DNA from: Micromonospora sp. LH3U1
Lineage (GTDB): Bacteria > Actinomycetota > Actinomycetes > Mycobacteriales > Micromonosporaceae
Reading direction: 5' to 3'
Assembly (NCBI RefSeq): GCF_028475105.1
Contig: NZ_CP116936.1
Span: 3,037,501 to 3,101,500 of the forward strand
Length of the DNA: 64,000 nt
The notes under the pieces are model-generated. The model ran no database searches and was not told the origin of the DNA. It saw nothing but the letters and a program-made list of their open reading frames with translations. Positions 15,865-34,996 of the stretch are shown here, piece by piece (position 1 is the first letter of the stretch; each line of letters starts with the position of its first letter). The position numbers and the translations under genes are program-made.

Positions 15865-18800
15865 ATGACCAGAACTATTCGACGAGCCCTCGCCGCGGTA
15901 GCGGCCTTCGCGACACTGATTCCAGCAACGACGGCGGCAGCCGCACCGCGAACGGCAGCGGCCCCGCAGGCGGCGCAGCCGCCGAAGACAGCGGTCCTCG
16001 TGTTTCACGGGCCGGTGGCCGAGCAACAGGACCCGGTCTCTCGCGCGGTGGACACCATCACGCAGCTTGGTGCCACCAATGACATCGATGTCAGGACCAC
16101 CACGGACCCGGGTGTGTTCACCACGGCCGGACTGTCGACGTACCGCAGCGTGGTCTTTCTCTCCGCGACGGGCGCCGCGCTCAACCGCGACCAGGAGTCG
16201 GCGCTGCAGAGCTACATGAAGGCCGGCGGCGGTTTCGTCGGCATCGCCGACGCCGCCCGCGCCCAGGTCGATTCGGCCTGGTTCACCGGCCTGATCGGCA
16301 CCCGCCCGGCGGGCGCCATCCCGGTGGCCGAGCCGGTGGCCCGGGTGACCGCCAGCGGCGAGAACGCGCCGAACGAGACCAAGGAGAAGCTGACCGACGG
16401 CGACGGCAACACCAAGTGGCTCGTCCGCACCCCGACGGCCTGGGTGGCATACGAGTTGAGCGCACCCAAGCGGATCACCGGGTACGCGCTGACGTCGGCC
16501 AACGACTCCTCCGGCCGGGACCCCAAGGACTGGACCCTGCAGGGCTCCACGGACGGCCAGACCTGGTCCGATCTGGACCGACGCACCAACCAGACCTTCC
16601 CCGACCGGTTCCAGACCCGCCGGTTCGACATCGCCACGCCGCAGGAGTTCACCCGCTACCGGTTGAACATCACCGCGAACAGCGGGGAGCCACTGACCCA
16701 GCTCGCCGACCTGCGCCTGTTCACCGGCAGCACCACCGCCCCGGAGCCGCCTGCGGTGAACCGCGCGGTGGTCGACATCCTGGACCGGAAACACCCGGCC
16801 ACGGCGTCGCTGCCGATGACCATCACCCGGTCGGACCGCTGGGAGAACTGGGACCCGAACCCCATCGGCACCGTGCACACGCTCGCGCAGGTGGAGGAGC
16901 GGCACTACAACCCGGGGCCGGGTGCCAACGGCGCCTTCCACCCCGTGTCCTGGTGCCGGGACTACGACGGCGGCCGGTCGTTCTACACCGGCATGGGCCA
17001 CACCGAGGGCAGCTACGGTGAGGAGGCGTTCCGTACGCACCTCGCCGGAGCCCTCAACTGGACCACCGGTCGCGTACGCGGCGACTGCCAGGCCACGATC
17101 GCCGCGAACTACAAGGTGGAACGGCTCACCGCGGCGAACCAGACCGGGCAACTGGACCAGATCGGCGAGCCGCACGGGCTCACCATCGCGCCGGACGGCA
17201 CGGTCTTCTACGTCGGCAAGGCGGCCTGCCCGAGCGGCCCGATCGCGGACTGGAACAACCCGAAGGTCGGCCTGGGCTGCGGCACCATCCACTCGTGGGA
17301 CCCGCGTACCAAGCAGGCCAAGCTGCTCACCACCCTCGAGGTGATGGGCAACCGGGGCAGCGGCTCCGAGTTGGTGAAGAACGAGGAGGGCCTGCTCGGC
17401 ATCGTGCCCGACCCCGCGTTCGCGGAGAACGGGTGGCTCTACGTCTACTGGATGCCACACGACTCCGTCGACCGGGTCAAGCGGGTCGGGCAGCGCACCG
17501 TCTCCCGGTTCACCTACGACCGCGAGGCGCAGACCATCGAGCACGCCACCCGCAAGGATCTGCTGCAGTTCCCGGTGCAGATCCACAGCTGCTGCCACGC
17601 CGGCGGCGGCATGGCGTTCGACGCCAAGGGCAACCTCTACGTCGGCTCCGGCGACAACAACTCCTCCGAGGGATCGCAGGGCTACTCCGGCAACAACTGG
17701 ACCCAGGAGTACCAGGGGATCTCGTTCCAGGACGCCCGCCGCACGTCGGGCAACACCAACGACCTCGCCGGCAAGATCATCCGGATTCACCCGGAGTCGG
17801 ACGGCACGTACACCATCCCGGAGGGCAACCTGTTCCCACCGGGCACCGAGAAGACCCGGCCGGAGATCTACGTGATGGGCGTCCGCAACATCGCCCGCCT
17901 GCAGATCGACCCGGTGCACCAGTGGCTGACCGCTGGCTGGGTCGGCCCGGACGCCGGATCGCCCAGCCCCACCCTGGGCCCGGCCAAGTACGAGACCGCC
18001 ACCATCATCACCTCGGCCGGTAACCAGGGCTGGCCCTACTGCATGGGCAACCGGCAGCCGTACCGGGATCGCAGCAGCACCGACGCGACCGTCCTCACCG
18101 GCTGGTACGACTGCGACAACCTGAAGAACGAGTCGCCGCGCAACACCGGACTGGTGGACATCCCGGCAGCCCGGGACAACATGATCTGGTATTCGCCCGA
18201 TGGCGGCGGCCCGGTGTTCCCGCAGCGAGCCGACGGCAGCGGCCTCCCGACCTACGTCGCGGCCGACGCCACCTACACACAGCCGTACCTGCGTGGCGGC
18301 GGGCAGGCCATCATGTCCGGCCCGACGTACCACCGGAAGCTCGTCGACACCAACAGTGGCGTGGCGTGGCCGGAGCACTGGGACGGAAAGTGGTTCATCG
18401 GCGACCAGTCGAACGCGACCAACCGGGTCGCGGTCACCGTCGACCCGGCCGGCGTGCCGCAGGCCGCCCCGCCGGTGTACGCCGAGTCGCTGCGGACCAT
18501 CATTCCGGGCGGCAACGGAGACGCCCGGCTGCAGAGCTGGATGGACGCCAAGTTCGGCCCGGACGGCGCGCTCTACCTGCTGGACTACGGCGGCGGGTTC
18601 TTCAGCCTGCACCCCAACCAGAAGCTGATCCGGATCACCTACACCGGTGGCGCGCCCACCCCGGCACCGGCCGCGAACTCGGTCGCCGTACAGAACAAGC
18701 CCCTGACCATCGCCTTCAACGGTTCCCGCTCCGGCGGCGTCAGCCACCGGTGGGAGTTCGGCGACGGCGCCACGTCGACCGAGGCGAACCCTCGGCACAC

Positions 18801-19800
18801 GTACGCCCGGGTCGGCGTCTACACCGCGAAACTGACCGTCACGTACGCCGACGGTGCGACGGCGACGGTGCAGACCACGGTCACGGTGGGCTGCGCGGTG
18901 CCGGACGGCCGGCAACAGGTGTGGCTCGGCGACACGGACACCGGGGTGCCCAGTCGGACGGTCGGGCAGGGCTGCACGATCAACGACCTGATCGACGACG
19001 AGAGCACCTGGACCGACCACAACGGTTTCGTCCGGCACGTGAGCGCGGTGGCCCGCGCGCTGCAGGACGACGGGTTGCTCAACTCCCGCGAGTCCGGCAC
19101 CCTCACCCGCCTGGCCGCCGCGTCCGAGATCGGCCGGGACGGACACACCGGGTACGAGCCGCTCTTCGACGGGACCGCCGAGTCGCTCCTCGCCTGGCAG
19201 CAGGCGCCGTCGGGATCGTTCGCCATCCAGCCGGACGGTTCGCTGCGGTCCAGCGGTGGCCTGGGCATGCTCTGGCACACCAAGGAGTTCGGCGACTTCT
19301 CGCTGAAGGTGCAGTTCCGGGACATCGCGCCGGGCACCGGTCGGGCCAACACCGGCGTCTTCACCCGATTCCCGGACCCGCGGATCCCCCTCGACCAGCG
19401 GCCACCGGGCAGTTGCGGCACGGTCGGATCAGCCCGGACCTCGCAGGCCTGGGTGGCGATCTTCTGCGGACACGAGATCCAGATCTACGACGGCGAGACC
19501 GGCGAGCCACAGAAGACCGGCTCGGTCTACAACTTCGACCCGGTGCCGCTCGCCCAGGCCGGGGTGACTCCGAAGAACCAGTGGAACGACTACGAGATCC
19601 GCGTTGTCGGGCAGCACTACACCATGATCCGCAACGGTGTGGTGATCAACGAGTTCGACAACACGCCCGGCAAGCAGTCCTCCCGTGCCGGCGATCCGCC
19701 GACCGATCTGCGGCAGTTCCTCCGCGGCTTCATCGGCCTGCAGAACCACGGTGACAACGACCTGACCGAGTTCCGCAACATCCGCGCGCGGGAACTCTAG
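15865..19800 (+). CDS. Secreted ThuA / discoidin / sugar dehydrogenase / PKD / DUF1080 protein
   Basis: A 1311-residue exported protein. Order, with approximate residues: signal peptide 1-27; ThuA-like domain 45-155; discoidin (F5/8C-like) insert 160-290; remainder of the ThuA fold 300-398, including GMGHTEGSY; PQQ-type sugar (glucose/sorbosone) dehydrogenase beta-propeller 412-925 with IGEPHGLTIAPDG and HAGGGMAFD; PKD domain 929-1008; a short module with GCTINDLID 1009-1088; DUF1080/3-keto-disaccharide-hydrolase-like jelly roll 1094-1311. It should oxidise and process sugars or glycosides outside the cell. The start is the ATG at 15865, where a clear signal peptide begins. It sits between the oxidase and cupredoxin genes, suggesting a joint redox function, which is an inference. 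Confidence 0.85.
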   Translation: MTRTIRRALAAVAAFATLIPATTAAAAPRTAAAPQAAQPPKTAVLVFHGPVAEQQDPVSRAVDTITQLGATNDIDVRTTTDPGVFTTAGLSTYRSVVFLSATGAALNRDQESALQSYMKAGGGFVGIADAARAQVDSAWFTGLIGTRPAGAIPVAEPVARVTASGENAPNETKEKLTDGDGNTKWLVRTPTAWVAYELSAPKRITGYALTSANDSSGRDPKDWTLQGSTDGQTWSDLDRRTNQTFPDRFQTRRFDIATPQEFTRYRLNITANSGEPLTQLADLRLFTGSTTAPEPPAVNRAVVDILDRKHPATASLPMTITRSDRWENWDPNPIGTVHTLAQVEERHYNPGPGANGAFHPVSWCRDYDGGRSFYTGMGHTEGSYGEEAFRTHLAGALNWTTGRVRGDCQATIAANYKVERLTAANQTGQLDQIGEPHGLTIAPDGTVFYVGKAACPSGPIADWNNPKVGLGCGTIHSWDPRTKQAKLLTTLEVMGNRGSGSELVKNEEGLLGIVPDPAFAENGWLYVYWMPHDSVDRVKRVGQRTVSRFTYDREAQTIEHATRKDLLQFPVQIHSCCHAGGGMAFDAKGNLYVGSGDNNSSEGSQGYSGNNWTQEYQGISFQDARRTSGNTNDLAGKIIRIHPESDGTYTIPEGNLFPPGTEKTRPEIYVMGVRNIARLQIDPVHQWLTAGWVGPDAGSPSPTLGPAKYETATIITSAGNQGWPYCMGNRQPYRDRSSTDATVLTGWYDCDNLKNESPRNTGLVDIPAARDNMIWYSPDGGGPVFPQRADGSGLPTYVAADATYTQPYLRGGGQAIMSGPTYHRKLVDTNSGVAWPEHWDGKWFIGDQSNATNRVAVTVDPAGVPQAAPPVYAESLRTIIPGGNGDARLQSWMDAKFGPDGALYLLDYGGGFFSLHPNQKLIRITYTGGAPTPAPAANSVAVQNKPLTIAFNGSRSGGVSHRWEFGDGATSTEANPRHTYARVGVYTAKLTVTYADGATATVQTTVTVGCAVPDGRQQVWLGDTDTGVPSRTVGQGCTINDLIDDESTWTDHNGFVRHVSAVARALQDDGLLNSRESGTLTRLAAASEIGRDGHTGYEPLFDGTAESLLAWQQAPSGSFAIQPDGSLRSSGGLGMLWHTKEFGDFSLKVQFRDIAPGTGRANTGVFTRFPDPRIPLDQRPPGSCGTVGSARTSQAWVAIFCGHEIQIYDGETGEPQKTGSVYNFDPVPLAQAGVTPKNQWNDYEIRVVGQHYTMIRNGVVINEFDNTPGKQSSRAGDPPTDLRQFLRGFIGLQNHGDNDLTEFRNIRAREL

Positions 19801-19808
19801 GAGAGACG

Positions 19809-21335
19809 ATGCCCCGACGACTGACAGCCGCGCTGGCGGCGCTCCTGCTCACGGTGATCCCGTTGGCGCCAACGCCCGCCTCCGCCGCCCCTCGCGTCGC
19901 GGAACAGGTGCTGACCTGGACCGCTGACGACAGCATCACCCGCTACAAGTCCACGCCCACCTCAGCCGTGGCTGGCGAGACCACGATCATCTGGGAGAAC
20001 AGCGCGGCCACCGGCAACACCACCGGGATGCCGCACACGCTGACCTTCGACACCAGCACCGAGGGATACAACCACGACGTCACCCTCAACATCCTGGCCA
20101 GCCCGTTCGACGCCAACGACGGCCGCCACCAGGCGACCGTCACGCTGACCCCCGGCCGGTACCGCTACTTCTGCTCGATCCCCGGGCACAGCCAGATGGT
20201 CGGCGAGCTGGTGGTCACCGACGGCGGTGGTGGCGGCGACACCACTCCGCCGACGGTCACCGCCGCCGTGTCGGGCGACCGCGACCAGGACGGCAACTAC
20301 CTCGCTGCGGCCACGGTGACCGTGACGGCCACCGACGCCGACTCGGGTGTGGAGACCGTCGAATACCAGATCGACGACACCAGCTTCCAGCCGTACACGC
20401 AGCCGGTGCGTGTCACCGCGATCGGCGACCACTCGGTGCAGTTCCGCGCCACCGACCAGGCCGGCAACGTCAGCGCGGTCGGCTCGGTGTCGTTCCGGAT
20501 CGTCGAGCCGGGGGAGGACGACACCACCGCGCCGGTGGTGACGGCGACCCTGGCCGGCGACCGCGACGGCGACGGCAACTACATCGGTACGGCCACCGCC
20601 ACGCTGACCGCCACCGACACCGGATCCGGTGTCGCCACCATCGAGTACGCGCTGGACGGGGCTGCCTTCACCGCGTACGCGAACCCGATCGTCGTGAACG
20701 TGGCCGGAATGCACATGCTGCACTACCGGGCGACCGACGTCGCCGGGAACGTGTCGGCCGAGCAGATGGCCCACTTCACGGTCGTCGCACCGCAGGCCGA
20801 GGACACCACGCCACCCGTCGTCTCCGCCACGGTGACCGGCGAGCGGGACGACGATGGCGGGTACGTCGGCGGCGCGACCGTGACCGTCACGGCGACCGAC
20901 GACGAATCCGGTGTGGCAACGATCGAGTACGCGCTCGACACCGGCGCCTGGACCCCGTACGCCGGACCGGTCCCCGTCCGGACCGTCGGCGCCCACACCC
21001 TGCGGTACCGGGCGACCGACACCGCAGGGAACGCCTCCACCGGGCAGTCGACGACGTTCACCGTGGTGGCCGACGGCACCGACGGCTGCCCCGACTCGGA
21101 CACCCGGTCCACGGTGATCATTGACGGCGACGACACCGGCGTGGCCAACGTCGACACCGGCGACGGCTGCACCATCAACGATCTGATCGACGAACGTGCC
21201 GACTACCCCGGCCACGCCGAATTCGTCCGGCACGTCGAAGCGGTCACCGCCGCGCTCGTGACCGGCGGCACGCTCAACCGGCGGCAGCAGGGCGCCATCG
21301 TCCGGGCCGCGGCCCGATCGGACGTCGGCGCATGA
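19809..21335 (+). CDS. Secreted cupredoxin with OmpL47-like repeats
   Basis: A 508-residue exported protein. The signal peptide ends near residue 26 (PASAAP). A plastocyanin/azurin-like domain follows with type 1 copper ligands His76 (GMPHTL), Cys122, His127 and Met130 (YFCSIPGHSQM). Three tandem repeats of about 90 residues (roughly 144-232, 237-326, 330-420) start DTT(P/A)P and contain YRATDxAGN or FRATDQAGN, as in OmpL47/bacterial Ig-like repeats. The last 80 residues repeat the CTINDLID module of the upstream protein. It is preceded by GGAGAG and lies eight bases after that gene. A tethered extracellular electron carrier is a fair reading. Confidence 0.85.
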   Translation: MPRRLTAALAALLLTVIPLAPTPASAAPRVAEQVLTWTADDSITRYKSTPTSAVAGETTIIWENSAATGNTTGMPHTLTFDTSTEGYNHDVTLNILASPFDANDGRHQATVTLTPGRYRYFCSIPGHSQMVGELVVTDGGGGGDTTPPTVTAAVSGDRDQDGNYLAAATVTVTATDADSGVETVEYQIDDTSFQPYTQPVRVTAIGDHSVQFRATDQAGNVSAVGSVSFRIVEPGEDDTTAPVVTATLAGDRDGDGNYIGTATATLTATDTGSGVATIEYALDGAAFTAYANPIVVNVAGMHMLHYRATDVAGNVSAEQMAHFTVVAPQAEDTTPPVVSATVTGERDDDGGYVGGATVTVTATDDESGVATIEYALDTGAWTPYAGPVPVRTVGAHTLRYRATDTAGNASTGQSTTFTVVADGTDGCPDSDTRSTVIIDGDDTGVANVDTGDGCTINDLIDERADYPGHAEFVRHVEAVTAALVTGGTLNRRQQGAIVRAAARSDVGA

Positions 21336-21367: not shown

Positions 21368-22504
21368 ATGCCTGGACGTACCGTCGTCAAGCTGGCCACC
21401 GTGAGCGCCGTCGTCGCCGCCTCGGTGCTGGCGGTGGCGCCCACCGCACACGCCGACCTGCTCACCCACTGCATCGGCACCGGCGGTGCGGTGACCGTGC
21501 CCAACGACCTGCTCGTGCCGGCCGGCGAGTCCTGCGCGCTGACCGGCACCACGATCACCGGCAACGTCACCGTCGCGGCCGGCGGCAACCTGGTGGTGGC
21601 CGGTGGCCGGGTCAGCGGCGAGGTGCGCGTCGCCGCGGACGGCTACCTCGACGCGACCGACACGACCATCGAGGGCCAGGTGGTGCTGGCCGCCGGCGGG
21701 TACGGCGTCTTCCTCAAGGACGCGCGCACCGGCACCGTGACGGTGCGGCCGAAGGGCTCCGCGACCGTCGACAGCTTCCTGTTCGCTGAGCAGTCGACGG
21801 TGACCGGGCACGTCAACGTCAGCGCCGGTGAGGTCCGGCTCGACCGCGGCACCCAGGTGGAGCGCAACGTCAGCAGCACCGGCACCTACTACACCGACGT
21901 GCACGACTCGTTCGTCGACGGCACCCTGTCGGTGCTGAACAGCGCCACCGGCAGTGTCGTGTGTGGCAGTGCGGTCCGCGGCCGGGCCACCTTCGCCGGG
22001 AACGTGGGCGGTGTGCAGCTCGGCCCGAACGGCGCCCTCGACAGTTGCGCGTCCGGCGGCTACTGGGGCGGGGACGTCAGCATCACCAGCACCACCGGTG
22101 GCGTCACGGTCGACGACAACATCATCAACGGCCAGTTGACGGTTACGTCCAACGACCCGGCCGCCCAGGTGGCCGCGAACAACCGGATCCGCGGTGGCGT
22201 GACCGGTGACCAGGCGGCGGCGACCACCAACCGGTCGGCACGGGTGGCCGGCCCGGACCGGGAGGACGCCGGCGACCAGCGGGCCGAGGTTCGTCGTACC
22301 TCGGCGGTGCAGGAGGCCACCGGCCGGCGACGCCCGGCTCTAGGCGCCCGCTGGTCACGCCGGGCCGGACGTCATCAGGCGTCCGGCCCGGCGCCCTGGT
22401 CTCACCGTGTGGCCGACCCCGGCAGGCGGGCACCCGGGCTCACCTCACCCGCTGCGCCCCGATCGCCGACGGAAGCCCGTTGCGGCCCCGGACGCCCAGC
22501 TTGA
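21368..22504 (+). CDS. Secreted beta-helix-like repeat protein, 3' end uncertain
   Basis: The product has a signal peptide (to about AHADL, residue 30) and about 260 residues of short imperfect repeats rich in G, V and T (TGNVTVAAGG, SGEVRVAADG, EGQVVLAAGG), suggesting a right-handed beta-helix as in bactofilin or polymer-binding proteins. I do not recognise an enzyme motif. The ATG at 21368 has AGGGAG upstream; a GTG/ATG at 21332 is less likely. The frame stays open to 22504 but passes a strong terminator-like hairpin (22358-22393) and overlaps the convergent regulator gene. The basic, low-complexity tail from about residue 290 may therefore not be real; a TAG at 22341 in another frame may be the true end. 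Confidence 0.65.
   Translation: MPGRTVVKLATVSAVVAASVLAVAPTAHADLLTHCIGTGGAVTVPNDLLVPAGESCALTGTTITGNVTVAAGGNLVVAGGRVSGEVRVAADGYLDATDTTIEGQVVLAAGGYGVFLKDARTGTVTVRPKGSATVDSFLFAEQSTVTGHVNVSAGEVRLDRGTQVERNVSSTGTYYTDVHDSFVDGTLSVLNSATGSVVCGSAVRGRATFAGNVGGVQLGPNGALDSCASGGYWGGDVSITSTTGGVTVDDNIINGQLTVTSNDPAAQVAANNRIRGGVTGDQAAATTNRSARVAGPDREDAGDQRAEVRRTSAVQEATGRRRPALGARWSRRAGRHQASGPAPWSHRVADPGRRAPGLTSPAAPRSPTEARCGPGRPA
22358..22393. terminator. Strong hairpin between convergent genes
   Basis: A perfect 14-bp inverted repeat (CGCCGGGCCGGACG and complement) with an 8-base loop sits between the oxidase operon and the convergent LuxR-type gene. It is probably a bidirectional terminator. It lies inside the open 3' extension of the beta-helix gene, which argues that the extension is not translated. 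Confidence 0.75.
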
Positions 22505-25126
22505 CGTACGCCCTCTGCAGGTGGTTCTCCACCGTCCGTACCGACAACACGAGCTGGGCCGCGATCGCCGCGTTGTCGTGCCCGGTCGACGCCAGCTCGC
22601 AGATCTGCCGCTCCCGAGGGGTGAGCCCCTCCCGGTCCGACGGACGAGGGATCAACGGCGGCCAGTATCCGCCGCAGCGCTCCCGCAGCACGTCGGCCTG
22701 GCGGGCCAGCAGATTCGCCCGGCGCTGGTCGCCGCGTCGGGCGTACGCCGCCTCGGCCACGACCACCGCCTCCAACCCGAGCGTCAGGTACCCGCTGCTC
22801 TCCAGTGCGCTGGCGACGCGTTCCAGCGCGGCCGGGTCGTCGGCGGCGAGCGCCTGGGCGTAGTCGGACCACAGCTCGAACAGCGGACTGTCACAGTCGG
22901 CGGTGGCCTTTGCCAGCCGCTCGGCGGTCTCGGCGCTGGGCTCCAACCGGGAGAGCAGGTGCAGACACTCGACCGTGACCGTCGTCGCCTGCTCGGCCCG
23001 TCCGTGCAGCTCGCGGAGCGTGGCGACGGCCATGGCCGGACGTCCCTCGGCCGCGGTCAGCCAGGCGGCGGTCAGCTCCGCGTCGATGCCCACCAGGCCG
23101 CTGCCGTGCGCGCCGTCACCGTCGACGAGCTGCCGCAGTAGCCGTCTACTCTCGGCCAGCTCACCCAACTGCGCCGCCACGTACGCGTTGGCGGACAGCA
23201 CGTAGTCCCGGATCGGGAACAGTGTGCGGTCGGCGGCGAGGGTACGGGCCTCGTGCAGCCACCGCATCGACCGGCGCATCTGCCCGGCGTGGTAGGCGCA
23301 CTTGCCCAGGGAGAAGGCGAGCAGACCGACCGCGTCGGCGGCGCCCCGCGCCACCGCGTCCCGGTAGTAGCACTGAGCCAGTCGCTCGGCCTCGCGCAGT
23401 CGTCCGGACAGGAGCAGGGACTGCACGTGACAGGCCTGCGTGGCGGCCCGCATCGTCGGCCAGCTCTCCGGGATGTCCACCTCGCCGGTGTCGAACATCC
23501 GTACCGCCCGATCCGGCTGCCCGTTGAACAGCAGCAGGTACGGCAGCAGCGCCGCGACGGCCGTCGCCAGCAGAGGGTCTCGGGGTCGGTCGGCGGCCAA
23601 CCGCGCCATGGACGCCCGCGCGCCGTCGGCGTCGCCGCCGAACGCCGCGACCCCCACCTCCGCGGCGAGCAGTCCGGCGAGCGCGTCGGCGGGCAGCTCG
23701 CGGCGGCCCGCCTCGATCACCGCACGGGCCCGGTCGGGCCGACGGTCTCCCAGTACATGTTGAGCGCCCGCAGCGCCGTCGCCTCCGCGCGGTCGCGCGC
23801 GTCGGTGAGGTCGGCCGCCGCCCGGGCCAGGTATCCGTCCGCCTCACCGCCGCGGCCCTGAGCGACCAGTGCCCGGCCCACCTGCCAGTGGCCACGCGCC
23901 GAGTCGACCCGCCGGCCCAGCCGTTCAGCCAGCACCGCGTCGTGCCGACGCAGGGCGTACTCCGATGCCGCGAGCAGGTCGTCCGCGTCGACCGGCAGAT
24001 CCGCCTCACAGCGCCAGGCCGCGATCCGTGCCCGGTCGTCGACGCCGCCGCCGTCCGCTGCGGCGAGTGCCTCGGCGAGGGTCCGGCGCAGGCGGCGGGC
24101 CCGCAGCGCACCGGTCCGGTTGCGGACCACCTCGGCGTACAGCGGGTGACCGGTCTGCACCAGCACGGACGCGTCGTGGCGAACCAGACGGATCAGGCCC
24201 CGTTCCTCGAGCCGTTCCGCGATGACCGGGTCCACCGTCCGCTCGATCAGCGTCAGCGGCGCCGGTTCGGCGTGCGCGACGTACTGCAGCGCCTCGACCT
24301 CCGGTGGGGTGAGCGTGCCGAGTGTCTGCTCGATGAGGTCGGCGAGATGGGTGGAGCACAGCGAGTCGGCGGGCCAGGTCCACATCCCGTCGCGTTGGAC
24401 CAGACCCCCGTCGCGCAGCCCGCACCGCAGCGCCTCGCGCAGGAAGAGCGGGTTGCCCTGACTGATCCGCCACAGCGCACCGACGGTCAGACCGTCGACC
24501 GGACCGCCGAGCCCTTCGCGGACCAGCAGCGCGGCCTCCTCCGGGTTCAGCGGCGGCACCTGGACCCGGTCGAGGTCGCCAGTGCGTCGGAGGGCCGCCA
24601 CCGGCGCGGCGTCCAGGGCGTCGCCGCGCACGCTCGCCGCCACCCGCACGGTGCCGCCCGCGACGAGCCGTTCGAGCAACGCACTGGACGCGTCGTCCAG
24701 CCAGTTGAGGTCGTCCACGCCGACCACCACACTCCGGCCCGCCGAGACCTCGCGCAGCCGGCGCTCCACGTCCCGGAAGACGTCGGCCACACTCGCGTCC
24801 GACGGCTGGGGGAGTCGGCTGGCGAGTACGCCGAACGGCACGCCACGCCATCCGGGGGTGGCGGTGACCCGCAGCACGACGTTCTGCCGCCTCAGCGCGT
24901 GATCCAGCACCTCCTCCAGCAGCCGGCTCTTTCCCACGCCCGGGTCACCGGTGAGCAGAACCCCTCTACCCGCCGCCGCGGTGAGCGCCTCGACCGCCCG
25001 GTCCCGCTCGCGCGTCCGGCCGACGAACGGCCACTCGGTGGCTGACGCGCGGAGTGAGCTTGCGAGCCCCGCTGTCGGCAGCCGAAAGGATGACACTCCG
25101 CCCACGAAACCCCCTGGTGCAGACAC
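22440..25126 (-). pseudogene. LAL-type LuxR family regulator, split into two frames
   Basis: Together the two halves make a typical LAL regulator of about 890 residues. The upstream half (25126 to 23717, 469 residues, GTG start with AAGGAG four bases before) has Walker A LLTGDPGVGKS and Walker B VVVGVDDLNW. The downstream half (23720 to 22440, 426 residues) has TPR-like helices and a C-terminal LuxR HTH (LTPRERQICELASTGHDNAAIA...). The halves meet at GTGA, but the second frame stays protein-like upstream of its GTG (reading RPDRARAVIEAG). An original single gene broken by an indel in a C/G-rich stretch is therefore more likely than two coupled genes. It is divergent from the lanthipeptide precursor and is its probable regulator. 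Confidence 0.75.
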
Positions 25127-25445
25127 GGAACTCCTTCAGCCCGGCCGGGTTCCCCTGGGCCCGGTCGCCATCTCCGTCCTCGATCCGCTCGTCGAGCCGG
25201 ATCGTGTGCACAGCGGTCTGGGTGGCGCGGGCCCACCCTCACACACCCCGACCGGCGGTGCCGTCGCCTTCCAGACATGCCTGCACACCTGACGCCCCGA
25301 CCCGGCGGTTCGGTTGTCACCGCCGCGACAGTGCCGGCCCGGGATGAGGTACCGGCTACTCATGTGCCGGCACCCCCCTGGCACGGACGCTGTTCCTGCC
25401 AGCGATCGCCGGGCAGGCCGGCGGTCGTCGTGAAAGGAGCTCCGA
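25127..25445. promoter_or_regulatory. Divergent region between LAL regulator and lanthipeptide precursor
   Basis: This 319-base gap should contain promoters for the regulator and the lanthipeptide operon. Visible elements are the AAGGAG site of the regulator at its left edge and the strong AAAGGAG site before the precursor ATG at its right edge. I could not identify confident -35/-10 boxes or a clear direct repeat for LuxR binding, and I see no further small gene. Confidence 0.45.
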
Positions 25446-25628
25446 ATGTCCATCACCGACATCGTCAGCAGCTGGAAGGACGAGTACCAGCGCGCAGCCT
25501 CGCCCGAGACCGTCGAGACCCACCCGGTCGGTCTGGTCGAGCTGGACCGTGACCAGCTGGAAACGGTGGCCGGCGGTGCCGCCGCGACCACGGGTCACAC
25601 CACGGCCTGCTGCCACTGCGTCTGCTGA
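25446..25628 (+). CDS. lanA: Class II lanthipeptide precursor (mersacidin/lichenicidin family)
   Basis: A 60-residue precursor. The leader begins MSITDIVSSWKDEYQR, carries HPVGLVELD and ends ETVAGG, matching the leader layout of the mersacidin/lichenicidin family (WKDEEYR, NPAG-IEL, VAGG). Cleavage after GG leaves the 16-residue core AAATTGHTTACCHCVC: four Thr, four Cys, no Ser, Cys at the end. LanM would dehydrate Thr and add Cys to form methyllanthionines. The C-terminal Cys and the LanD gene nearby predict an aminovinyl-methylcysteine. AAAGGAG precedes the ATG. A hairpin follows before LanM. The family call is strong; ring pattern and activity are inference. I do not recognise this core from any described lantibiotic. 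Confidence 0.9.
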   Translation: MSITDIVSSWKDEYQRAASPETVETHPVGLVELDRDQLETVAGGAAATTGHTTACCHCVC

Positions 25629-25651
25629 TCTCGTTCGACTCTCGGGTCCGC

Positions 25652-25680
25652 GCGGGGTCCGGGCCTGGCCCGGACCCCGC
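25652..25680 (+). terminator. Hairpin between lanthipeptide precursor and LanM
   Basis: A perfect 12-bp inverted repeat (GCGGGGTCCGGG and complement) with a five-base loop, 24 bases after the precursor stop. Partial termination or mRNA protection here would give excess precursor over its modifying enzyme, as commonly found in lanthipeptide operons. Confidence 0.75.
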
Positions 25681-25715
25681 CGTCCCACCCGAACCACACG
25701 CCAGGGGAGCCCTGA

Positions 25716-28700
25716 ATGTCCGTACATCCGTACCGTGCCGCCGACGACCCGACCGCCCGCGCGGAGGATCGCCTCCTGGCCGCGTTGACCATCACCGAAC
25801 GGCTGGCCGTACCCGTGTCGACGGTCCCGCAGCCCGGCGAGCGGGCGCGGTGGCGGCTGTCCCGGTGGCGCACCGGCGGCGCGTTCGCCGACGACGAGGA
25901 CTGGCGTCGGCGGCTGGCGGCGGAGGGCATCGACGAGCAGGTGCTCCTCGCCCTGCTGGACGAGACACCCGAGCGGCTCGCCGCCCGCCTCGGCCGAACC
26001 CCGGAGTGGATCAACCGCATGCTGGCCGGCTACCGCCAGTCGACGAGCCGCGCGATCGAACCCGAACTGCTGCCCGGCCGCCCGCTGGACGCCTGCCTCA
26101 CCCTGGTGGCGCCACTGGTCGCCGAGGCCCGTGCACGAGTGGCACGACGAGTTCGTCACCTCACCGACGACACCGGGCTGCTGCCCGCCGACGCCGACCG
26201 GATGGGGTTGACCGGCCTGCTCGACGAGTTGGTGGTGGTCCTCAGCCGAGCGGTCGTCCTGGAACTCAACATCGACCGGCTGCGCGGCACCTCGCCCGGG
26301 GAGACGCCGCAGCAGCGCTTCACCGCCTTCTTCGGCCGGTACCGTTCGCCCGAGGCCGCCCTGACCCTGTTGGCCGACTACCCGGTCCTGGCACGGCAGG
26401 CGTACGAGTTGACCCGCAACTGGGCGGATCGCACGATCGAGTTCCTGGAGCGTCTGCACGCCGACGCGTCGACGCTCGGCGCGACCTTCCACGCCGGTGT
26501 TCCGGTTGGCCGCCTGCTGGAGGTCCAGGAGACCGGCGACGCGCACCGTGACGGTCGCCGGGTGTTGGTGGCGACGTTCGACAGCGGGCTGCGACTGGTC
26601 TACAAGCCCCGCGCGGTCGCCGTCGAGGCCCGGTTCCAGCACCTGCTGGCCTGGCTCAACGAGCGTGGCGCCGACCTGCACACCTTCACCGTCGTTCCGC
26701 GCGGCGAACACGGCTGGGCCGAGTACGTCGACACGTACGCCCCCACCACGTCGGCCGGGCACCGCAGGCACGCCCGCCGGTTCGGCGCGTTGCTGGCCCT
26801 GTTGCAGGCTGTCGGCGCCACCGACTGCCACCAGGAGAACGTGATCGTCCACGGTGAGCATCCGGTCCTGGTCGACCTGGAGACGGTGTTCACCCCGTCG
26901 GTCGTCCGTGCCGCGAGCGCCCGTGGCGGCGACGCCATCGCCGACTCGGTGCTGGCGGTCGGCCTGTTGCCCCGCGCCGACGAGGCGGCGGGACCGGCCG
27001 GCGACGGCTGCAACTGCTCAGCCTGGGAGGCCGAGGGGACCGACGAGATGCGTCTGTGCGCGCCCGGGCACCACCACGACGAGCGCGACGCCCACGACCC
27101 GGCCGCCGAGTCCCCGGTGACCGACGTCGGCACGCACCTACCGCAGGTGGTGGACGGCTTCGCGGAGATGTATCGCCTCCTCGTCGATGTCCGTGCCGAC
27201 CTGCTGGCCCCGGACGGGCCGCTCGCCGCGTTCGCCGCCGACGAGATCCGTGTCGTGCTCCGTCCCACCCGCACCTACCTGCGGCTGCGCGACGCCGCCC
27301 TGCACACCGACGCGCTGCAGGACGGCCTCGACACCGAACGGCTGCACGACTGGCTCTGGTCGGGGGTTGCCGAACTGCCGTTGCTGGCGGCCACCGTCGA
27401 GGCGGAACGGGCCGACCTGGCCCGCCGTGACGTGCCGATCTTCACCACCACGGTGGACTCCCGCGACCTCTGGACCGGCCGGGGACGGCGGCTGCCGGGA
27501 CTCCTGGCCCGCTCCGGCCTCGCCGAGGCGCGCCGTCGGCTCGACCGGCTCGGCGAGCCCGACCTGGCCCGGCAGCGCTGGCTGATCGAGGCCGCCTTCG
27601 CCGCCCCGGTGGACGCCACCGACGCCCCCACGCGCGAGTGCGCTGGACGCTGGCCGACGTGTCGCCGACGCCGGTGCCTCCGCGCGCGGATTACCTGGCC
27701 GCCGCGGCCGAGGTGGCGGACGCGGTGGCCGCGCTCGCCTGCCCGGGTGCCGAGCCGACCTGGTTCGGCCTCACGCCCGGTGTCGCCGACCCGGGCCGCT
27801 GGGTGCCGGCACCACTCGGTCCGCATCTCTACGACGGGGTCGCGGGGGTGGCCCTGTTCCTGGCCCAGGCCGGCCGGCTCGCCGACGAGCAGCGATTCAC
27901 CGACCTCGCCGAGCGCGCAGCAGCCGGGCTCGCCGACCGCGTCCTCGAGCACCGCATACCCGGCGAGCGGATCGGCGCGTTCACCGGATGGGCTGGGCTG
28001 CTCTACACCTTCGGTCACCTCGGGGCGTTGTGGCAGACCCGCCGGTTCGCGCCGGTCGTCGACACGGCCCTGGCACGGATCGTCGCGCTGGCCGGCACCG
28101 ACCAGGCCGCCGATCTGGTCGACGGGTACGCCGGCGCCGTCCTCGCCGTTTCCCGCGCCGGCCTGGACCCCGAGCGGGTCGAGCCGGCCGTCCGCGCCGC
28201 CGCCCGACGGCTGCGCGTCGCCGCCGACCGCTACCCGCACCCGACCGGAGCGCCGACCGGTGCCCCGCTGGGCGGGCTGTCCCACGGGTCGGCCGGGATC
28301 GCCGCGGCGCTCGCTCAGGCCGGTCAGGCGACCGGTGACCCCGGGTACGCCGAGGCCGCCGCCCGCGCGCTCGCGTACGACCGCAGCCTGTTCCGGCCGG
28401 AGCAGGCGAACTGGGCCGACCTGCGGCGTCCTGGGCAGAGCACGGTGACCTGGTGCCACGGCGCACCGGGGATCGGCCTGTCGCGGCTGCTCGTCCGCGA
28501 CGCCCTCGGTGCCGACGAGACTCTGGACGCGGAGATCAGCACCGCGGTCGGCACCACCCTGGCCACCGGGTTCGGTCGCAACCACTCGCTGTGCCACGGG
28601 GACCTCGGCAACCTGGACCTGCTGCTGGCCGCCGCCCCGCAGCACGCGCCGGCGCCGGCGGCGGCGGTGCTGCGCGACGGCCTCGCCTCTGGTTGGCGCT

Positions 28701-28876
28701 GCGCGAACCCCACCGCGCTCGCCACGCCGGAGTTGATGACCGGCCTGTCGGGGATCGGCCTGGCCCTGCTGCGGCTCGCCGCGCCCGAACGGGTGCCGTC
28801 GGTCCTCCTGCTGGCCCCGCCGACGGACGCACGCACCAGCACGGCTGACATCCGGAGGCGGCAGTGGGCCGCCTGA
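25716..28876 (+). pseudogene. lanM: Class II lanthipeptide synthetase LanM, frame broken between domains
   Basis: The first frame (from ATG 25716, GGGGAG upstream) gives 641 residues of LanM dehydratase (DUF4135). It includes LVYKPRA near 295-300 and TDCHQENVIVHG...LVDLETVF at 369-392, used to phosphorylate Ser/Thr and eliminate phosphate. The second frame, continuous from about 27638 to 28876, gives the LanC-like cyclase with Zn ligands in WCHGAPGIG and LCHGDLGN. The sum, about 1050 residues, is a normal LanM. The frames differ by one base; adding one C to the run at 27625-27629 would read DAPHARVRWTLADV and rejoin them. Assembly error, real disruption, or a two-part enzyme using the GTG at 27638 are the options, in that order of likelihood. 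It overlaps lanT by 13 bases. Confidence 0.88.
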
Positions 28877-31080
28877 CCGCGTGGCCGCGCCGACGCCGGG
28901 TGCCGCTGGTCATGCAGATGACCGACGCCGACTGCGGGGCCGCCTGCCTGGCCATGGTCTCCCGGCGGCACGGCGTGCGCGCCTCGTTGGCGCAGGTCCG
29001 GGAGGGGCTGGACATCGGCCGGGACGGGGTCACCGCGCGGGCACTGCTGGCGGCGGCGCCACGGTTCGGGTTGAGCGGCCGAGCGTTCCGGGCCGACCCA
29101 GGCCAGCTGGGGACACTTCCCCTGCCGGCCATCGCGCACTGGGAGGGTGCCCACTTCGTCGTGGTGGAGGAGATCGGCCCACGGGGCGTACGGCTCGTCG
29201 ACCCGGCGCAGGGGCGTCGGCTGCTCACGGCGGCGGAGTTCGCCTCCGGCTTCAGCGGAACGGTGCTGACCTTCACCCCCGACCCGCGGTCCGCCTCCGA
29301 ACCGCCCGCGGCCCGGTCCGGCCCGGTGGCCAGGTGGCGGCGTGTCCGCCCGCTGCTGCGGCCCTTCCTGCCTCGGCTGGGCGTCGCGTTCAGCGTCTCC
29401 CTGGTGCTCCAGATGCTGGGACTGGCGCTGCCACTGGCCACCACGGTCGCCTTCGACCAGATCATGCCGGCCCGGGAGACCGCCCTCATGCCCTACCTGG
29501 CGCTGGGCATCGCGGCGCTGGTGCTCACCCAGTTCGGTGTGGCGTATCTGCGCTCCCGGCTCCTCGTCACACTGCAGGCGACGGTGGACGCCGCGTTGAT
29601 GACCCGGCTGTTCGGGCACCTGTTGCGACTGCCGTACGCGTTCTTCCAGCAGCGGGCCAGCGGGGACCTGATGCAACGCCTGTCCAGCAGCATCCTGCTG
29701 CGCGAACTCGTCACCACCCAGGTGCTGACCGCGGTGATCGACGGCGTGCTCGTGATCGCGTACTTCGGTGTGCTGTTCGCCAGGGACCTCGCTTTCGCCG
29801 GGCTCGCCGCCGCGATCGGCGTCACCCAGGTGGTGGCCGTCGCGGTGGTCAACGGCCGGCTGCTGCGGTTGAACCAGCGGCACCTCACCGTGCAGGCGGA
29901 CGCGGAGAGCGCACTGATGGAGGCGCTGTCGGGCATCGCGACGGTCAAGTCGATGGGCGCCGAGCGTCAGGTGTACGACGGCTGGCTGCGCCGCTACACC
30001 ACGGCGCTGGACGCCGACGTCGCCCAGAACCGTCTGTCCGCCACGGTCGCCAACATCACCGCGAGTGTCCAACTGGCGGGCCCGCTGGCGCTGCTGTGGC
30101 TCGGCACCGGTCGACTCTTCGACGGCGCCGGCCTCGGTCAGACCCTGGGCCTGCAGGCGCTGGCGCTGTCCGCGCTCATCCCGCTCGCCTCCCTGGTGGC
30201 CAGCGCCCAGGTCCTCCAGTCGGTCGTGTCGCACCTGCAACGCCTGCGTGACGTCTTCGCCGCCCAGCCCGAACCGGCCGGGGATCCCGACCTGCCCGCG
30301 CCCCGGCTCACCGGCGCGATCAGCGTCCGTGACCTCAGCTTCCGCTACGACGGCGGTGCCGCGCCGGTGCTGCGGGACGTCTCCTTCGACGTCGCGCCGG
30401 GGGAGAAGATCGCCCTGGTCGGCCCGTCGGGAAGCGGCAAGAGCACCCTGGCCATGGTGCTGACCGGCCTCTACCGGCCCACCAGCGGGGAGATCCTGTT
30501 CGACGGGGTGCCGTTGTCGCGCATCGACCCGACCGCGCTGCGCCGCCAGTTCGGTGTGGTGCTGCAGGAGAGCTACCTGTTCCGGGACTCCATCCGGCGC
30601 AACATCAGCCTGGTGCACCCCGACGTGGGCATGCCGGCGATCCGGGCGGCCGCCGAGGTCGCCGCGATCGACGAGGACATCGCGGCGATGCCGATGGGGT
30701 ACGACACCCAGGTTGCCGAGCGCGGGCAGGCCCTGTCCGGCGGGCAGCGGCAGCGGCTCTCCATCGCGCGGGCCGTGGCCGGGCAACCCGCTGTGCTCCT
30801 GCTCGACGAGGCGACCAGCCACCTCGACGTGGCCACCGAGCGGCGTGTCGACCAGGCCATCTCGGCGATGCGCTGCACCCGGATCGTGGTGGCCCACCGG
30901 CTGAGCACCGTCCGTAACGCCGACCAGATCCTCGTCGTCTCCGGTGGTCGCATCGTGGAACGCGGCCGGCACGACGACCTGCTGCGCGCCGGCGGCGTCT
31001 ACGCCGACCTGGTCCGGTGTCAGTTGACCGACGACGAACCCGCTCACTCAGGAGGCGACGCGTGGATACCCGTACCGTGA
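28864..31080 (+). CDS. lanT: Peptidase-containing ABC transporter LanT
   Basis: A 738-residue half-transporter. Residues 1-130 are a C39 peptidase with Cys24 (DADCGAACLAM), His97 (HWEGAHFVVV) and Asp113 (LVDPAQG), which cleaves after double-Gly leaders. Residues about 160-440 form the six-helix membrane domain. The ATPase follows with Walker A GPSGSGKS near 520, signature LSGGQRQR and Walker B VLLLDEATSHLD. It should cut the precursor after VAGG and export the modified peptide. GTG start with GGAGG five bases upstream, overlapping the LanM end. All key catalytic residues are present, so this gene looks functional. Confidence 0.93.
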   Translation: MGRLTAWPRRRRVPLVMQMTDADCGAACLAMVSRRHGVRASLAQVREGLDIGRDGVTARALLAAAPRFGLSGRAFRADPGQLGTLPLPAIAHWEGAHFVVVEEIGPRGVRLVDPAQGRRLLTAAEFASGFSGTVLTFTPDPRSASEPPAARSGPVARWRRVRPLLRPFLPRLGVAFSVSLVLQMLGLALPLATTVAFDQIMPARETALMPYLALGIAALVLTQFGVAYLRSRLLVTLQATVDAALMTRLFGHLLRLPYAFFQQRASGDLMQRLSSSILLRELVTTQVLTAVIDGVLVIAYFGVLFARDLAFAGLAAAIGVTQVVAVAVVNGRLLRLNQRHLTVQADAESALMEALSGIATVKSMGAERQVYDGWLRRYTTALDADVAQNRLSATVANITASVQLAGPLALLWLGTGRLFDGAGLGQTLGLQALALSALIPLASLVASAQVLQSVVSHLQRLRDVFAAQPEPAGDPDLPAPRLTGAISVRDLSFRYDGGAAPVLRDVSFDVAPGEKIALVGPSGSGKSTLAMVLTGLYRPTSGEILFDGVPLSRIDPTALRRQFGVVLQESYLFRDSIRRNISLVHPDVGMPAIRAAAEVAAIDEDIAAMPMGYDTQVAERGQALSGGQRQRLSIARAVAGQPAVLLLDEATSHLDVATERRVDQAISAMRCTRIVVAHRLSTVRNADQILVVSGGRIVERGRHDDLLRAGGVYADLVRCQLTDDEPAHSGGDAWIPVP

Positions 31081-31682
31081 CCGCCGGCGCGACGCCGGAC
31101 CGAACCGACACCGATCCCGCACGGTTCCCGGCGCGGCGGGTCCTCGTCGCCGCGTGCGGGTCCGCCGACGTCCTGACCCTGCCTCAGTCGATCATGGTGA
31201 TGCGACACGCGTTGGGGCTCGACGTCCGGGTCGTGCTCACTCCCGCCGCGGCCCGCTTCGTGCCGGCTCGCTCGTTCACCCTCCTGACCGGACAGCCGGC
31301 GCTGACCGACGAGGAGGCGACGACGGAGATCCCGCACCTGACCCTGACGGCGTGGGCGGATCTGGTGCTGGTCATGCCGGCGACCGCCAACACCCTGGCC
31401 AAGGTGGCCCTGGGGATCGCCGACAACCTGGTCGGCACCTGCGTACTGGCCGCCGCCGCTCCGGTCGTGCTGGTGCCGTCGATGAACGCCGCGATGTGGC
31501 AGCGCCCCGCCGTGCAGCGCAACGTGGCGCAGTTGCGCGCCGACGGGTACGGCGTGGTGCCGCCCGTGCCCGTGCTCGCCCTGAGTACCGGCACTCTCGC
31601 CGGCCGGGGGATGCCGGCGGTCGAGGTGGTGCTGGAGTGGGTCGCCGCTCATCTTCGGGGTGGGGGAGAGGGCCGTGGCTGA
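31062..31682 (+). CDS. lanD: LanD-type flavin-dependent peptidyl-cysteine decarboxylase
   Basis: A 206-residue member of the homo-oligomeric flavin-containing Cys decarboxylase (HFCD) family related to EpiD and MrsD. It has the catalytic His92 (EIPHLTLTAWADL), PATANT at 106-111 in place of the PASANT substrate loop, and PSMNAAMW at 139-146, the PxMNxxMW motif. It oxidatively decarboxylates a C-terminal Cys of the precursor to an enethiol, which then cyclises onto a dehydro residue to give AviCys or AviMeCys. I chose the GTG at 31062 because AGGAGG lies six bases upstream; it overlaps the lanT end by 19 bases. The precursor ends in Cys, as this enzyme requires. Confidence 0.9.
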   Translation: MDTRTVTAGATPDRTDTDPARFPARRVLVAACGSADVLTLPQSIMVMRHALGLDVRVVLTPAAARFVPARSFTLLTGQPALTDEEATTEIPHLTLTAWADLVLVMPATANTLAKVALGIADNLVGTCVLAAAAPVVLVPSMNAAMWQRPAVQRNVAQLRADGYGVVPPVPVLALSTGTLAGRGMPAVEVVLEWVAAHLRGGGEGRG

Positions 31683-32331
31683 GGCGCGTCTCGGGTACGG
31701 GCCGAGGATCGCCGCGGCAGCCACCGCGCTCGGCGCTGTCCTGCTCGTGGTGGCGGCAGTTCCGTTCCTGCGCGCGTACGCCGACCCGGCCGCCCGCCAG
31801 CCGGCCGCCGCGATCGGCGTCGGGGCCGACCGGGCCGGCTGCGATCCGGAGTTGACCGACCCGATCCGTGGCGCGGGCGTCCACGTCGGCCCGGGCACCG
31901 CCGAGCCGTACGCCACCCGGGTGCAGTATGACGTGGTCCCGCCGTCGTCCGGGCCGCACTTCGTGGTGCCGGCCCCGACTGTGCGCCGGTTCTACACCAT
32001 CCGTGACCGCCCGCCGATCGAGACGTTGGTTCACAACCTCGAACACGGGTACACGATCCTCTGGTACGTCGAGCCGCTCGCCCGCAACCAGATCGAGGCA
32101 CTGCGGGCGCTGGCGCGCACGCTCGGCGACGACCGGTACGGCGGCAGGTTCGTGGTCGCACCGTGGGATCCGGGGTACGGGGTGTTCCCCGAAGGCCGCC
32201 CGCTGGCCCTGTCGCACTGGGGAGCCACCGCCGGGTACCGGCAGTTCTGCGCCGAGGTCAGCGGCGCGGCCGTGGAGCGGTTCGTCCTGGCGCACCCGCG
32301 CAGCGACGCCCCCGAGCCGACCGGGATGTGA
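31675..32331 (+). CDS. DUF3105 membrane-anchored protein at the end of the lanthipeptide operon
   Basis: A 218-residue protein with one N-terminal membrane helix (residues about 13-35) and an extracytoplasmic domain matching DUF3105, seen in HNLEHGYTILWY and GPHFVVPAP. The family has no established function. The GTG at 31675 has GGGGGAGAGG upstream and overlaps the lanD stop by 8 bases, so it is translationally coupled to the lanthipeptide genes. A role in self-protection or in handling the product outside the membrane is possible but unsupported; the family also occurs outside such clusters. Confidence 0.75.
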   Translation: MAEARLGYGPRIAAAATALGAVLLVVAAVPFLRAYADPAARQPAAAIGVGADRAGCDPELTDPIRGAGVHVGPGTAEPYATRVQYDVVPPSSGPHFVVPAPTVRRFYTIRDRPPIETLVHNLEHGYTILWYVEPLARNQIEALRALARTLGDDRYGGRFVVAPWDPGYGVFPEGRPLALSHWGATAGYRQFCAEVSGAAVERFVLAHPRSDAPEPTGM

Positions 32332-32411: not shown

Positions 32412-33545
32412 CTAGAAGTTACCGGCCGAGTTGCACTTCACGCCCTGGTCGAGGCAGTTGCGCACCCGTGCGGCGAGCGCCTCGTCCTTCCACGCGTTGA
32501 AGAAGTCCGCGTGCATGGAGAACGAGGTGCCGGAGGCGAGGGTGATGCCGTCCGTGTTGGCGCTCAGCGGGTACGAGATCACGAACGACACCGAGGGGAC
32601 CGGCACCGGGTGACTCTTCGGGCACGCCCCGGTGTGGTCACCGTTCGCCATGTGCGCCTTGTGGTCGGGGCTGTCCAGGTGCTTGCCGTCCCAGCAGTCC
32701 GGGAAGGTGATCTGCCGGACGATGTTCGCGGTCTTGGCGCAGACCGGGAAGGTCTTGTCGGCGCTGCGGCCGATTTCGCCACCGATACCGGCGCACCAGA
32801 AGTGGTTGCCCTGCTTGTCCGGAGTGTCGACCTGGTTCTTGGCGTTACCGGTGATCATTCGCAGGCCGAACGGGAAAGGCTGGGTCCTGCTCGGGTCCTT
32901 GAGGCGGGAACCGTAGTAGACGGTCACCTCCGTGGGGTCGACGACCTTGCCGTTCTGGTACATCGTCGGAATCCAGTATGCGGACTGGTCATCCGGCGAG
33001 TTGCACGTGGTCGCCTTCGACGATCGCAGCGACTCGGCGGTCGAGTTCGCGTTGGTCGACTTGTTGCCCCAGAACGTGTGGTTGTGCGAGCCGCCGACCA
33101 GCTTGGGCAGCACGATCGGGTCGTCGCTGTTGTGGTGGCTGGTCTTACAGCCGACATTGAACTCGGGCACCTTCACCGGGTTGCCGGTCACGGGCTTGGG
33201 CTTGCGCGCGAAGAATGCCTTTGTCGCGGCGGCCTGCCCGGCAGGGTCGATCGTGATCCAGCCACCGGATGCGGTGGGTGGGGCACTGCCGGTCGACGGA
33301 GTCGCCGGCTTGCCCGAGGCGGACGGGGTCGCCGAGGCGCCCGGCGCACTCGGCGTGGCCGACGGGTCGCCCGGGACGGCGGACGTCGGTGCCTCCGGGC
33401 CGGACGAGCCGATGCCGGTGTCGCTGGACGGACCGGACGCACCGGGAGTGCCCGGAGCCTCCTTGCATCCGCCGGCGAGCGCCACGCTCAACAGCAGCAG
33501 GGCGGTGACGGAACGACGTTGTCCAGGGGTGGATCGTAGAATCAT
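32412..33545 (-). CDS. DUF1996 lipoprotein
   Basis: A 377-residue lipoprotein. The signal ends in LAGGC, then comes a long Ser/Thr/Pro/Ala/Gly linker (about 80 residues) and a DUF1996 domain with GGSHNHTFWGN, YWIPTMYQNG and the His-rich HKAHMANGDHTG near the end. DUF1996 proteins are secreted or surface-bound; their function is unknown, though the conserved His residues suggest metal binding or catalysis. I prefer the ATG at 33545 because it starts the lipoprotein signal; an upstream in-frame start at 33608 adds an unrelated basic stretch. Confidence 0.82.
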   Translation of the reverse strand: MILRSTPGQRRSVTALLLLSVALAGGCKEAPGTPGASGPSSDTGIGSSGPEAPTSAVPGDPSATPSAPGASATPSASGKPATPSTGSAPPTASGGWITIDPAGQAAATKAFFARKPKPVTGNPVKVPEFNVGCKTSHHNSDDPIVLPKLVGGSHNHTFWGNKSTNANSTAESLRSSKATTCNSPDDQSAYWIPTMYQNGKVVDPTEVTVYYGSRLKDPSRTQPFPFGLRMITGNAKNQVDTPDKQGNHFWCAGIGGEIGRSADKTFPVCAKTANIVRQITFPDCWDGKHLDSPDHKAHMANGDHTGACPKSHPVPVPSVSFVISYPLSANTDGITLASGTSFSMHADFFNAWKDEALAARVRNCLDQGVKCNSAGNF

Positions 33546-33866
33546 CAACGGGGGCGCACCTTTCTTCCGAGAACGAAGAATACGAGTCGACCCCCTGAGC
33601 GCTTCCAACTGAGACGATTAATTCTCCCTTAAATATCGCTCAGCGATTGACCGATCAGCTTTGCGCAGCGGCCCAGCTGTCGTATCAATCTCATTTCCCT
33701 GATTTTTCTCTAAAAACTGTAATCGGCGACTCCCGCGCTACTCCACTTTCTTGAGTGGTCGGCCAACGGCGGTATCCGCGACGCCCCCACGATGGGCAGG
33801 TCGACGTGGCGCGGGTCATCCACACGGCGGAGGCCCGCCCACCTCGGGCTGTGGCACGCTTGGGCG
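33546..33866. promoter_or_regulatory. AT-rich divergent intergenic region
   Basis: The 321 bases between the DUF1996 and thioredoxin genes are unusually AT-rich for this window around 33600-33725 and probably carry the DUF1996 promoter. A short inverted repeat, ATCGCT-C-AGCGAT (33635-33647), is the only symmetrical element I noted. No gene is supported here. Confidence 0.4.
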
Positions 33867-34331: not shown

Positions 34332-34444
34332 CCGGCACCGCGTTGACCGACGTTGCGTTGACCGGCGCCGCGTTGACGCGCAGGCGGACCGTGGACCACG
34401 GCCGGCTGTCGGCGAGCCTCTGTCCGGCGTTCCCTTCCGCCTGA
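34328..34444 (+). CDS. Putative cysteine leader peptide (small ORF)
   Basis: A 38-codon ORF whose ATG overlaps the thioredoxin stop (ATGA). Its C-terminal part, LTRRRTVDHGRLSASLCP, resembles the short actinobacterial leader peptides with an RRRHVDL..SS.LC pattern that sit before sulfur-metabolism genes and act in cysteine-responsive attenuation. Here it precedes the DUF4395 gene by 64 bases. The N-terminal half has a TALTDVALTGAALT repeat. The match is by pattern only, and it has one Cys rather than several. Confidence 0.5.
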   Translation: MTGTALTDVALTGAALTRRRTVDHGRLSASLCPAFPSA

Positions 34445-34949: not shown

Positions 34950-34996
34950 CCGTCGAGCGCCATTCCGTCCGTGACCGTCGGGTCGACGGCGTCTCG

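Follow-up and report, generated by a model that had tools for sequence, protein, structure and literature searches.

A class II lanthipeptide gene block of Micromonosporaceae whose precursor cores retain cysteine and histidine residues

The window analysed here is a stretch of 64,000 nucleotides from the genome of Micromonospora sp. LH3U1, a single contig of 7.09 Mb, in which it occupies positions 3037501-3101500. It contains a block of six genes in the order LuxR-type regulator (divergent and upstream), precursor, LanM, C39 peptidase-transporter, flavoprotein and DUF3105 protein. The regulator gene lies on the minus strand (22440..25126 of the window) and is split over two frames, with an AAA ATPase part at 23717-25126 and a LuxR helix-turn-helix part at 22440-23720. 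The remaining genes are all on the plus strand: the precursor gene lanA (25446..25628), lanM (likewise in two frames, 25716..28448 and 27638..28876), lanT (28864..31080), which encodes an ABC exporter with a C39 peptidase domain (Peptidase_C39 E 6e-34, with matches to ABC_membrane and ABC_tran), lanD (31062..31682), which encodes a flavoprotein similar to peptidyl-cysteine decarboxylases (PF02441, E 2.8e-28), and a gene for a DUF3105 protein (31675..32331; PF11303, E 1.5e-16) in which an N-terminal hydrophobic segment was read from the sequence.

Translation of lanA gave a 60-residue precursor comprising the leader MSITDIVSSWKDEYQRAASPETVETHPVGLVELDRDQLETVAGG, 44 residues with VAGG at its end (25446..25577), and the core AAATTGHTTACCHCVC (25578..25625). 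A likely ribosome-binding site, AAAGGAG, was read at 25433..25439 on the same strand. The NCBIfam model for the mersacidin/lichenicidin leader family, TIGR03898, matched residues 5-44 of the precursor with 25.9 bits (E 7.2e-6) against a curated cut-off of 23.5 bits, while a Pfam search of the precursor returned no match at E 0.01. The start of lanM is 87 bases downstream, and this spacing together with the presence of same-core homologues in other genomes indicated that the ORF is more than a chance reading frame. The original prediction of a class II lanthipeptide precursor with a leader of the mersacidin/lichenicidin type was thus confirmed, and the precursor has the features of that class, namely a Gly-Gly leader end, a core with Cys and Ser/Thr residues, and an adjacent LanM with a DUF4135 dehydratase and a LanC-like cyclase domain. 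The double-glycine cleavage site was placed on the basis of the C39 transporter. If cleavage occurs directly after the double glycine, the core would indeed have the predicted 16 residues with four Thr, four Cys and no Ser; it had also been called very short, which is fair for 16 residues only in a relative sense, as some class II cores (prochlorosins) are shorter. Cleavage of the mersacidin leader is reported to take place in two steps (PMC9486960) and, since the same may apply here, the N-terminus of the mature peptide is uncertain. No second copy of the precursor was found in the LH3U1 genome, where the other seven matches had E values of 0.0485 or worse.

The precursor sequence was used to query 160 genomes of the same genus, and a profile was run against 354 genomes of the family. 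The precursor was found in 12 genomes including that of LH3U1, ten from Micromonospora and two from another genus of Micromonosporaceae. Seven of the 159 genus genomes other than LH3U1 had homologues with the same core, 83-95% identical along the full 60 residues, and a scan of named genomes placed at least three of the relatives in Micromonospora sp. MH99, Micromonospora sp. HK10 and Micromonospora globbae. Weaker matches in the genus and family were left out of the precursor family, those that were read being other proteins or other lanthipeptide cores. Outside the family, profile searches covered 394 genomes from the class, 295 from the genus of genome G371 (taken as Streptomyces) and 250 from the family of genome G390, and 396 genomes from the phylum were scanned with a DNA pattern for GHTxxCCHC. 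These four sets were samples drawn from larger groups, whereas the genus and family sets were not marked as drawn, and no further precursor with this core was found in any of the four. Weaker matches across the class were other lanthipeptide cores or unrelated frames, and two matches in the genus of G371 (L099, L100) covered only model positions 5-46. As far as searched, the precursor family appears to be confined to Micromonosporaceae.

Three core types were seen among the 12 precursors: AAATTGHTTACCHCVC in eight genomes, M[PA]PIDGHTEKCCHCMSPC in two and AAIDGHTSMCCHCVC in two. The stretch GHTxxCCHC and the last Cys, that is four Cys, two His and one Thr, were invariant in all 12 precursors, an invariance that rests on few independent changes since the three core types are related. 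Thr4 and Thr5 were replaced (Ile, Asp) in four of the 12 and Thr9 by Glu in two and by Ser in two, and the Thr of GHT, Thr8 in the LH3U1 core, was the sole ring-forming residue common to all core types. The commonest type, in eight of 12 genomes, has four Thr and four Cys, equal in number, whereas both rarer types have two Ser/Thr to four Cys, so that Cys residues exceed Ser/Thr in four of the 12 precursors. The earlier proposal that every Thr pairs with one Cys is possible for the LH3U1 core type; as a rule for the family a four-ring design was ruled out by the other two types, which keep all their Cys with two Ser/Thr.

At the codon level, 3 of the 16 core codons varied among the eight genes with identical cores, all silently, while 24 of the 44 leader codons varied and produced 14 residue changes (Fisher p 0.013 for core versus leader residue changes; p 0.098 when only variable codons were counted). 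This pattern is suggestive of selection on the core. Such constancy does not prove that the product is something other than an antibiotic, because for roseocin, too, identical precursors have been reported in 10 of 12 Micromonospora species (PMC10027976). The roseocin-like cores of loci L018-L023 were likewise identical to each other. These loci, together with L028, L036, L055, L060, L062 and L063, encode a precursor with a related leader and a very Cys/Thr-rich core, in which 9 Cys and 13 Ser/Thr were counted by eye and which matches the supersized roseocin alpha peptide as described (PMC10027976). Roseocin resembles the present system in its occurrence in Micromonosporaceae and, by weak profile matches, in its leader; it differs in being reported as a two-peptide system with two LanM enzymes (PMC10027976) and in having a different core.

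In the 11 other Micromonosporaceae genomes with the precursor (11 loci examined) the same genes were found in the same order. At locus L047 the contig ends inside lanM, and the regulator, the precursor and part of lanM are visible. Both the flavoprotein gene and the DUF3105 gene were present in all ten relatives whose contig reaches that place. Within the stretches compared, L041, the nearest relative, was the only one to share genes outside the block, and a flanking ABC ATPase gene matched those of other relatives at just 31-40% identity. The limits of the block were accordingly set at 22440-32331, the genes outside it being common only to L041. Between the DUF3105 gene and a short-chain dehydrogenase gene the window has about 5 kb (32415-37489) encoding a DUF1996 protein, a thioredoxin-like protein, a DUF4395 protein and a YkuD L,D-transpeptidase, where L041 has about 0.8 kb between the same neighbours. 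The stretch 15505-21332 holds a large multidomain protein (ThuA, GSDH, PKD and 3-keto-disaccharide hydrolase) and, after it, a protein with repeats of the OmpL47 type whose plastocyanin match is weak and falls below the cut-off.

For the DUF3105 protein of the block the predicted structure had a mean pLDDT of 43.5, too low for a fold search, and no paper naming DUF3105 was found in the open literature searched. At locus L046 the DUF3105 gene is in two frames (15781-15797 of that locus). LH3U1 has a second DUF3105 protein elsewhere in its genome (L097, 5944538-5944909), which scored 160 bits with the Pfam model compared with 62 bits for the one in the block; the ORF that follows it is one we take to be DUF305-like.

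The first lanM frame (25716..28448) carries the dehydratase domain to about position 27637, the rest of this ORF being out of frame (DUF4135 E 2.9e-94; structurally solved LicM2 E 7.7e-53 and CylM E 7.2e-30), and scored 407 bits with TIGR03897 against a cut-off of 304. The second frame (27638..28876) carries a LanC-like cyclase domain with two CHG motifs (LANC_like E 4.8e-53; C-terminal part of LicM2 E 1.7e-37); the class III synthetase model scored far under its cut-off on this frame. The switch in lanM lies near 27630 (27627 by the codon model) and that in the regulator near 23750. Dehydratase and cyclase were in one frame in all 11 relatives, for instance in Micromonospora globbae, one of these genes being cut by a contig end, and the regulator was also in one frame in all 11. 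A cyclase-less LanM as a new type of enzyme was therefore ruled out, as the LanC domain exists here in another frame and shares the frame of the dehydratase in the relatives, and so were two separate regulator genes. In the relatives, LanM retained DxHxxN as well as DLET and RPTRTY in 11 of 11 cases and two CHG motifs in all ten complete ones; we take these to be the catalytic motifs of LanM and the mark of a working enzyme.

Two split genes in one cluster, both whole in 11 of 11 relatives, could mean that the cluster has decayed in strain LH3U1 and that no peptide is made. Against this, both breaks are single-base differences beside a run of C or G when compared with seven aligned relatives, and the core is intact. 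A scan for mid-gene frame switches with a tail of at least 60 bases found eight in 464 kb of the LH3U1 genome, lanM included, and none in 206 kb of the relatives; with a tail of at least 20 bases the counts were 12 and 3. The scan is a rough comparison, since the stretches from the relatives are different regions from the LH3U1 sample, and its thresholds had been lowered after two stricter versions (3, then 2 candidates in LH3U1) missed lanM; even at the lower thresholds neither the break in the regulator nor the L046 DUF3105 gene with its two frames was picked up. Of the seven switches besides lanM, three were compared with two or three relatives and were also single missing bases, although the same comparison showed other gaps, including one-base gaps in regions of lower similarity past the breaks under test. 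Given single-base breaks at C/G runs in both genes and similar ones elsewhere in the genome, the breaks in lanM and the regulator are probably assembly (sequencing) errors, and we regard true decay as improbable. With both genes broken in the assembly, care is needed in any search for the product mass in cultures of this strain. The calculated [M+H]+ of the core cut after Gly-Gly is 1549.60 without modification and 1531.59, 1513.58, 1495.57 and 1477.56 with one to four dehydrations, or 1485.59, 1467.57, 1449.56 and 1431.55 when the C-terminal Cys is decarboxylated as well; the two rarer cores could lose two waters at most.

The product of lanD, the third gene downstream of the precursor, matched PDB 7cfu (E 7.7e-33; no paper on this entry was found in the literature searched), MrsD (E 1.2e-24) and EpiD (E 2.6e-15). 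Stretches PATANT and PxMNxxMW, presumably the flavoprotein decarboxylase motifs, were kept in all 11 flavoproteins (LH3U1 and ten relatives). Among NCBIfam models the CoaBC model gave E 7.4e-37 and 127 bits (cut-off 220), and the only RiPP decarboxylase model matched, CypD, gave E 8.5e-4 and 19 bits (cut-off 215); by these models, though below both cut-offs, the flavoprotein lies closer to the coenzyme A decarboxylases than to CypD. Decarboxylation of the C-terminal Cys, as originally proposed, stands as a prediction on the strength of the MrsD-like and EpiD-like matches.

The combination of a PF02441 flavoprotein and a C-terminal Cys is shared with the Avi(Me)Cys peptides, the ring acceptor is not. 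S-x-x-C is one of the usual spacings of the C-terminal aminovinyl ring. The other is T-X4-C, described for the mat and sis families, of which sis belongs to class V and so differs from the LanM system here (PMC11162475). In the present cores, Ser/Thr residues stand 12, 11, 8 and 7, 10 and 2, or 8 and 7 residues before the C-terminal Cys depending on core type, and none of the three types has a Ser/Thr at -3 or -5. The survey that describes mat and sis counted 1172 flavoprotein/C-terminal-Cys pairs and 65 clusters besides these two families, and the LH3U1 precursor may be among those pairs, unnamed (PMC11162475). A decarboxylated Cys may enter a larger ring, meet a Cys-derived acceptor, share a Dhb or stay a free enethiol. 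Closure on an unusual acceptor, either a Dha formed from Cys as in cypemycin or a Cys-bearing Dhb (bithionin) as in kintamdin, would draw on chemistries that have both been described (PMC10880069), and Cys stands at -5 in core types one and three. In the MSPC core type, however, that position is His, and apart from LanM and the flavoprotein no modifying enzyme was recognised among the genes of the block, so that closure of this kind seems to us a doubtful and rather improbable outcome.

The gene block most resembles that of mersacidin (MrsM, MrsD, MrsT), with which it shares the TIGR03898 leader, LanM, the C39 transporter, an MrsD-like flavoprotein and a short core. The mersacidin core has 20 residues, compared with 16 here, and it ends in C-x-C as the LH3U1 core does. 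The differences are the two invariant His, the lack of a Ser/Thr five residues before the last Cys, a DUF3105 gene in place of an immunity gene, none being recognised in the conserved block as judged from gene content, and the absence from all three core types of TxTxEC, given as the lipid II motif of mersacidin (PMC7268733). Judged by its genes the product is a class II lanthipeptide; lacking the motif, it does not count among lipid II binders of the mersacidin type, and its core lies off the usual acceptor spacing for aminovinyl-cysteine. These observations bear on a structure in which all four Thr would be dehydrated and each joined to a Cys, giving an antibiotic whose four rings overlap and include an aminovinyl-methylcysteine. 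Equal numbers of Thr and Cys in eight of 12 precursors and the presence of both LanM and a decarboxylase-like flavoprotein speak for such a peptide; the two rarer core types, which keep every Cys with only two Ser/Thr, the empty -3 and -5 positions, the missing lipid II motif and the lack of a recognised immunity gene speak against it, and we give this structure little credence.

A different use of the same residues would be the binding of copper or zinc, in which a soft-metal site, held by the Thr8 ring, would be built from both His, Cys-Cys-His-Cys and the enethiol at the C-terminal Cys. HTxxCCHC and the last Cys are invariant in 12 of 12 precursors, with Cys in excess of Ser/Thr in four of them, and in LH3U1 the other DUF3105 gene adjoins the presumed DUF305-like ORF, DUF305 being linked with copper. 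However, none of the genes in the block was recognised as coding for a metal transporter, a metal-responsive regulator or an uptake system, and the DUF3105 structure model was unusable. The role would be like that of noursin, a precedent that also has a short His-containing lanthipeptide core (PMC10206099). The copper-binding noursin is described as a class III product of a LanKC forming labionin and histidinobutyrine, with one Cys (PMC10206099), whereas here the synthetase is a LanM and the core has four Cys. A metal-binding peptide in this specific sense we consider unlikely, though worth keeping in mind.

The explanation we favour, and hold to be reasonably probable as a whole, is a class II lanthipeptide with one family-wide ring site, a decarboxylated Cys and an invariant Cys/His face. 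LanM would recognise the mersacidin-type leader, dehydrate Thr/Ser residues and close thioether rings, Thr8 of GHT having Cys11 or Cys12 as its likeliest partner. The flavoprotein would convert the C-terminal Cys to an enethiol by oxidative decarboxylation, and the C39 transporter would cleave after Gly-Gly and export the peptide. Dehydration, thioether closure, decarboxylation, cleavage and export are all taken from established knowledge of these enzyme families. With four Cys to two Ser/Thr, at least two sulfurs in two of the core types would lie outside Ser/Thr-derived thioethers, and these sulfurs sit beside the two invariant His. We read the product as a secreted, partly thiol-bearing lanthipeptide. 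It might act through this Cys/His face, by metal or thiol chemistry and not by the lipid II mode of mersacidin, a function that we propose tentatively. A bolder form, which we think distinctly unlikely, would make it the first class II lanthipeptide to keep its thiols, with a single methyllanthionine ring at Thr8, a decarboxylated Cys without an ordinary acceptor, a soft-metal or thiol face of Cys-Cys-His-Cys plus His, and the DUF3105 protein as partner. The earlier statement that no described lantibiotic has this core is consistent with the open literature searched, in which neither CCHCVC nor a description of the core was found; MIBiG, BAGEL and article supplements lay outside that search.

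What sets the family apart is that it preserves Cys and His rather than the Ser/Thr that form rings, and that a cysteine-decarboxylase-like enzyme accompanies the precursor in the relatives seen, though its usual ring partner is missing. This could reflect unusual ring chemistry, a free-thiol or metal-binding lanthipeptide, or a four-ring form special to one branch of the family. Clusters with an intact lanM in relatives such as Micromonospora globbae make direct testing of these alternatives possible.
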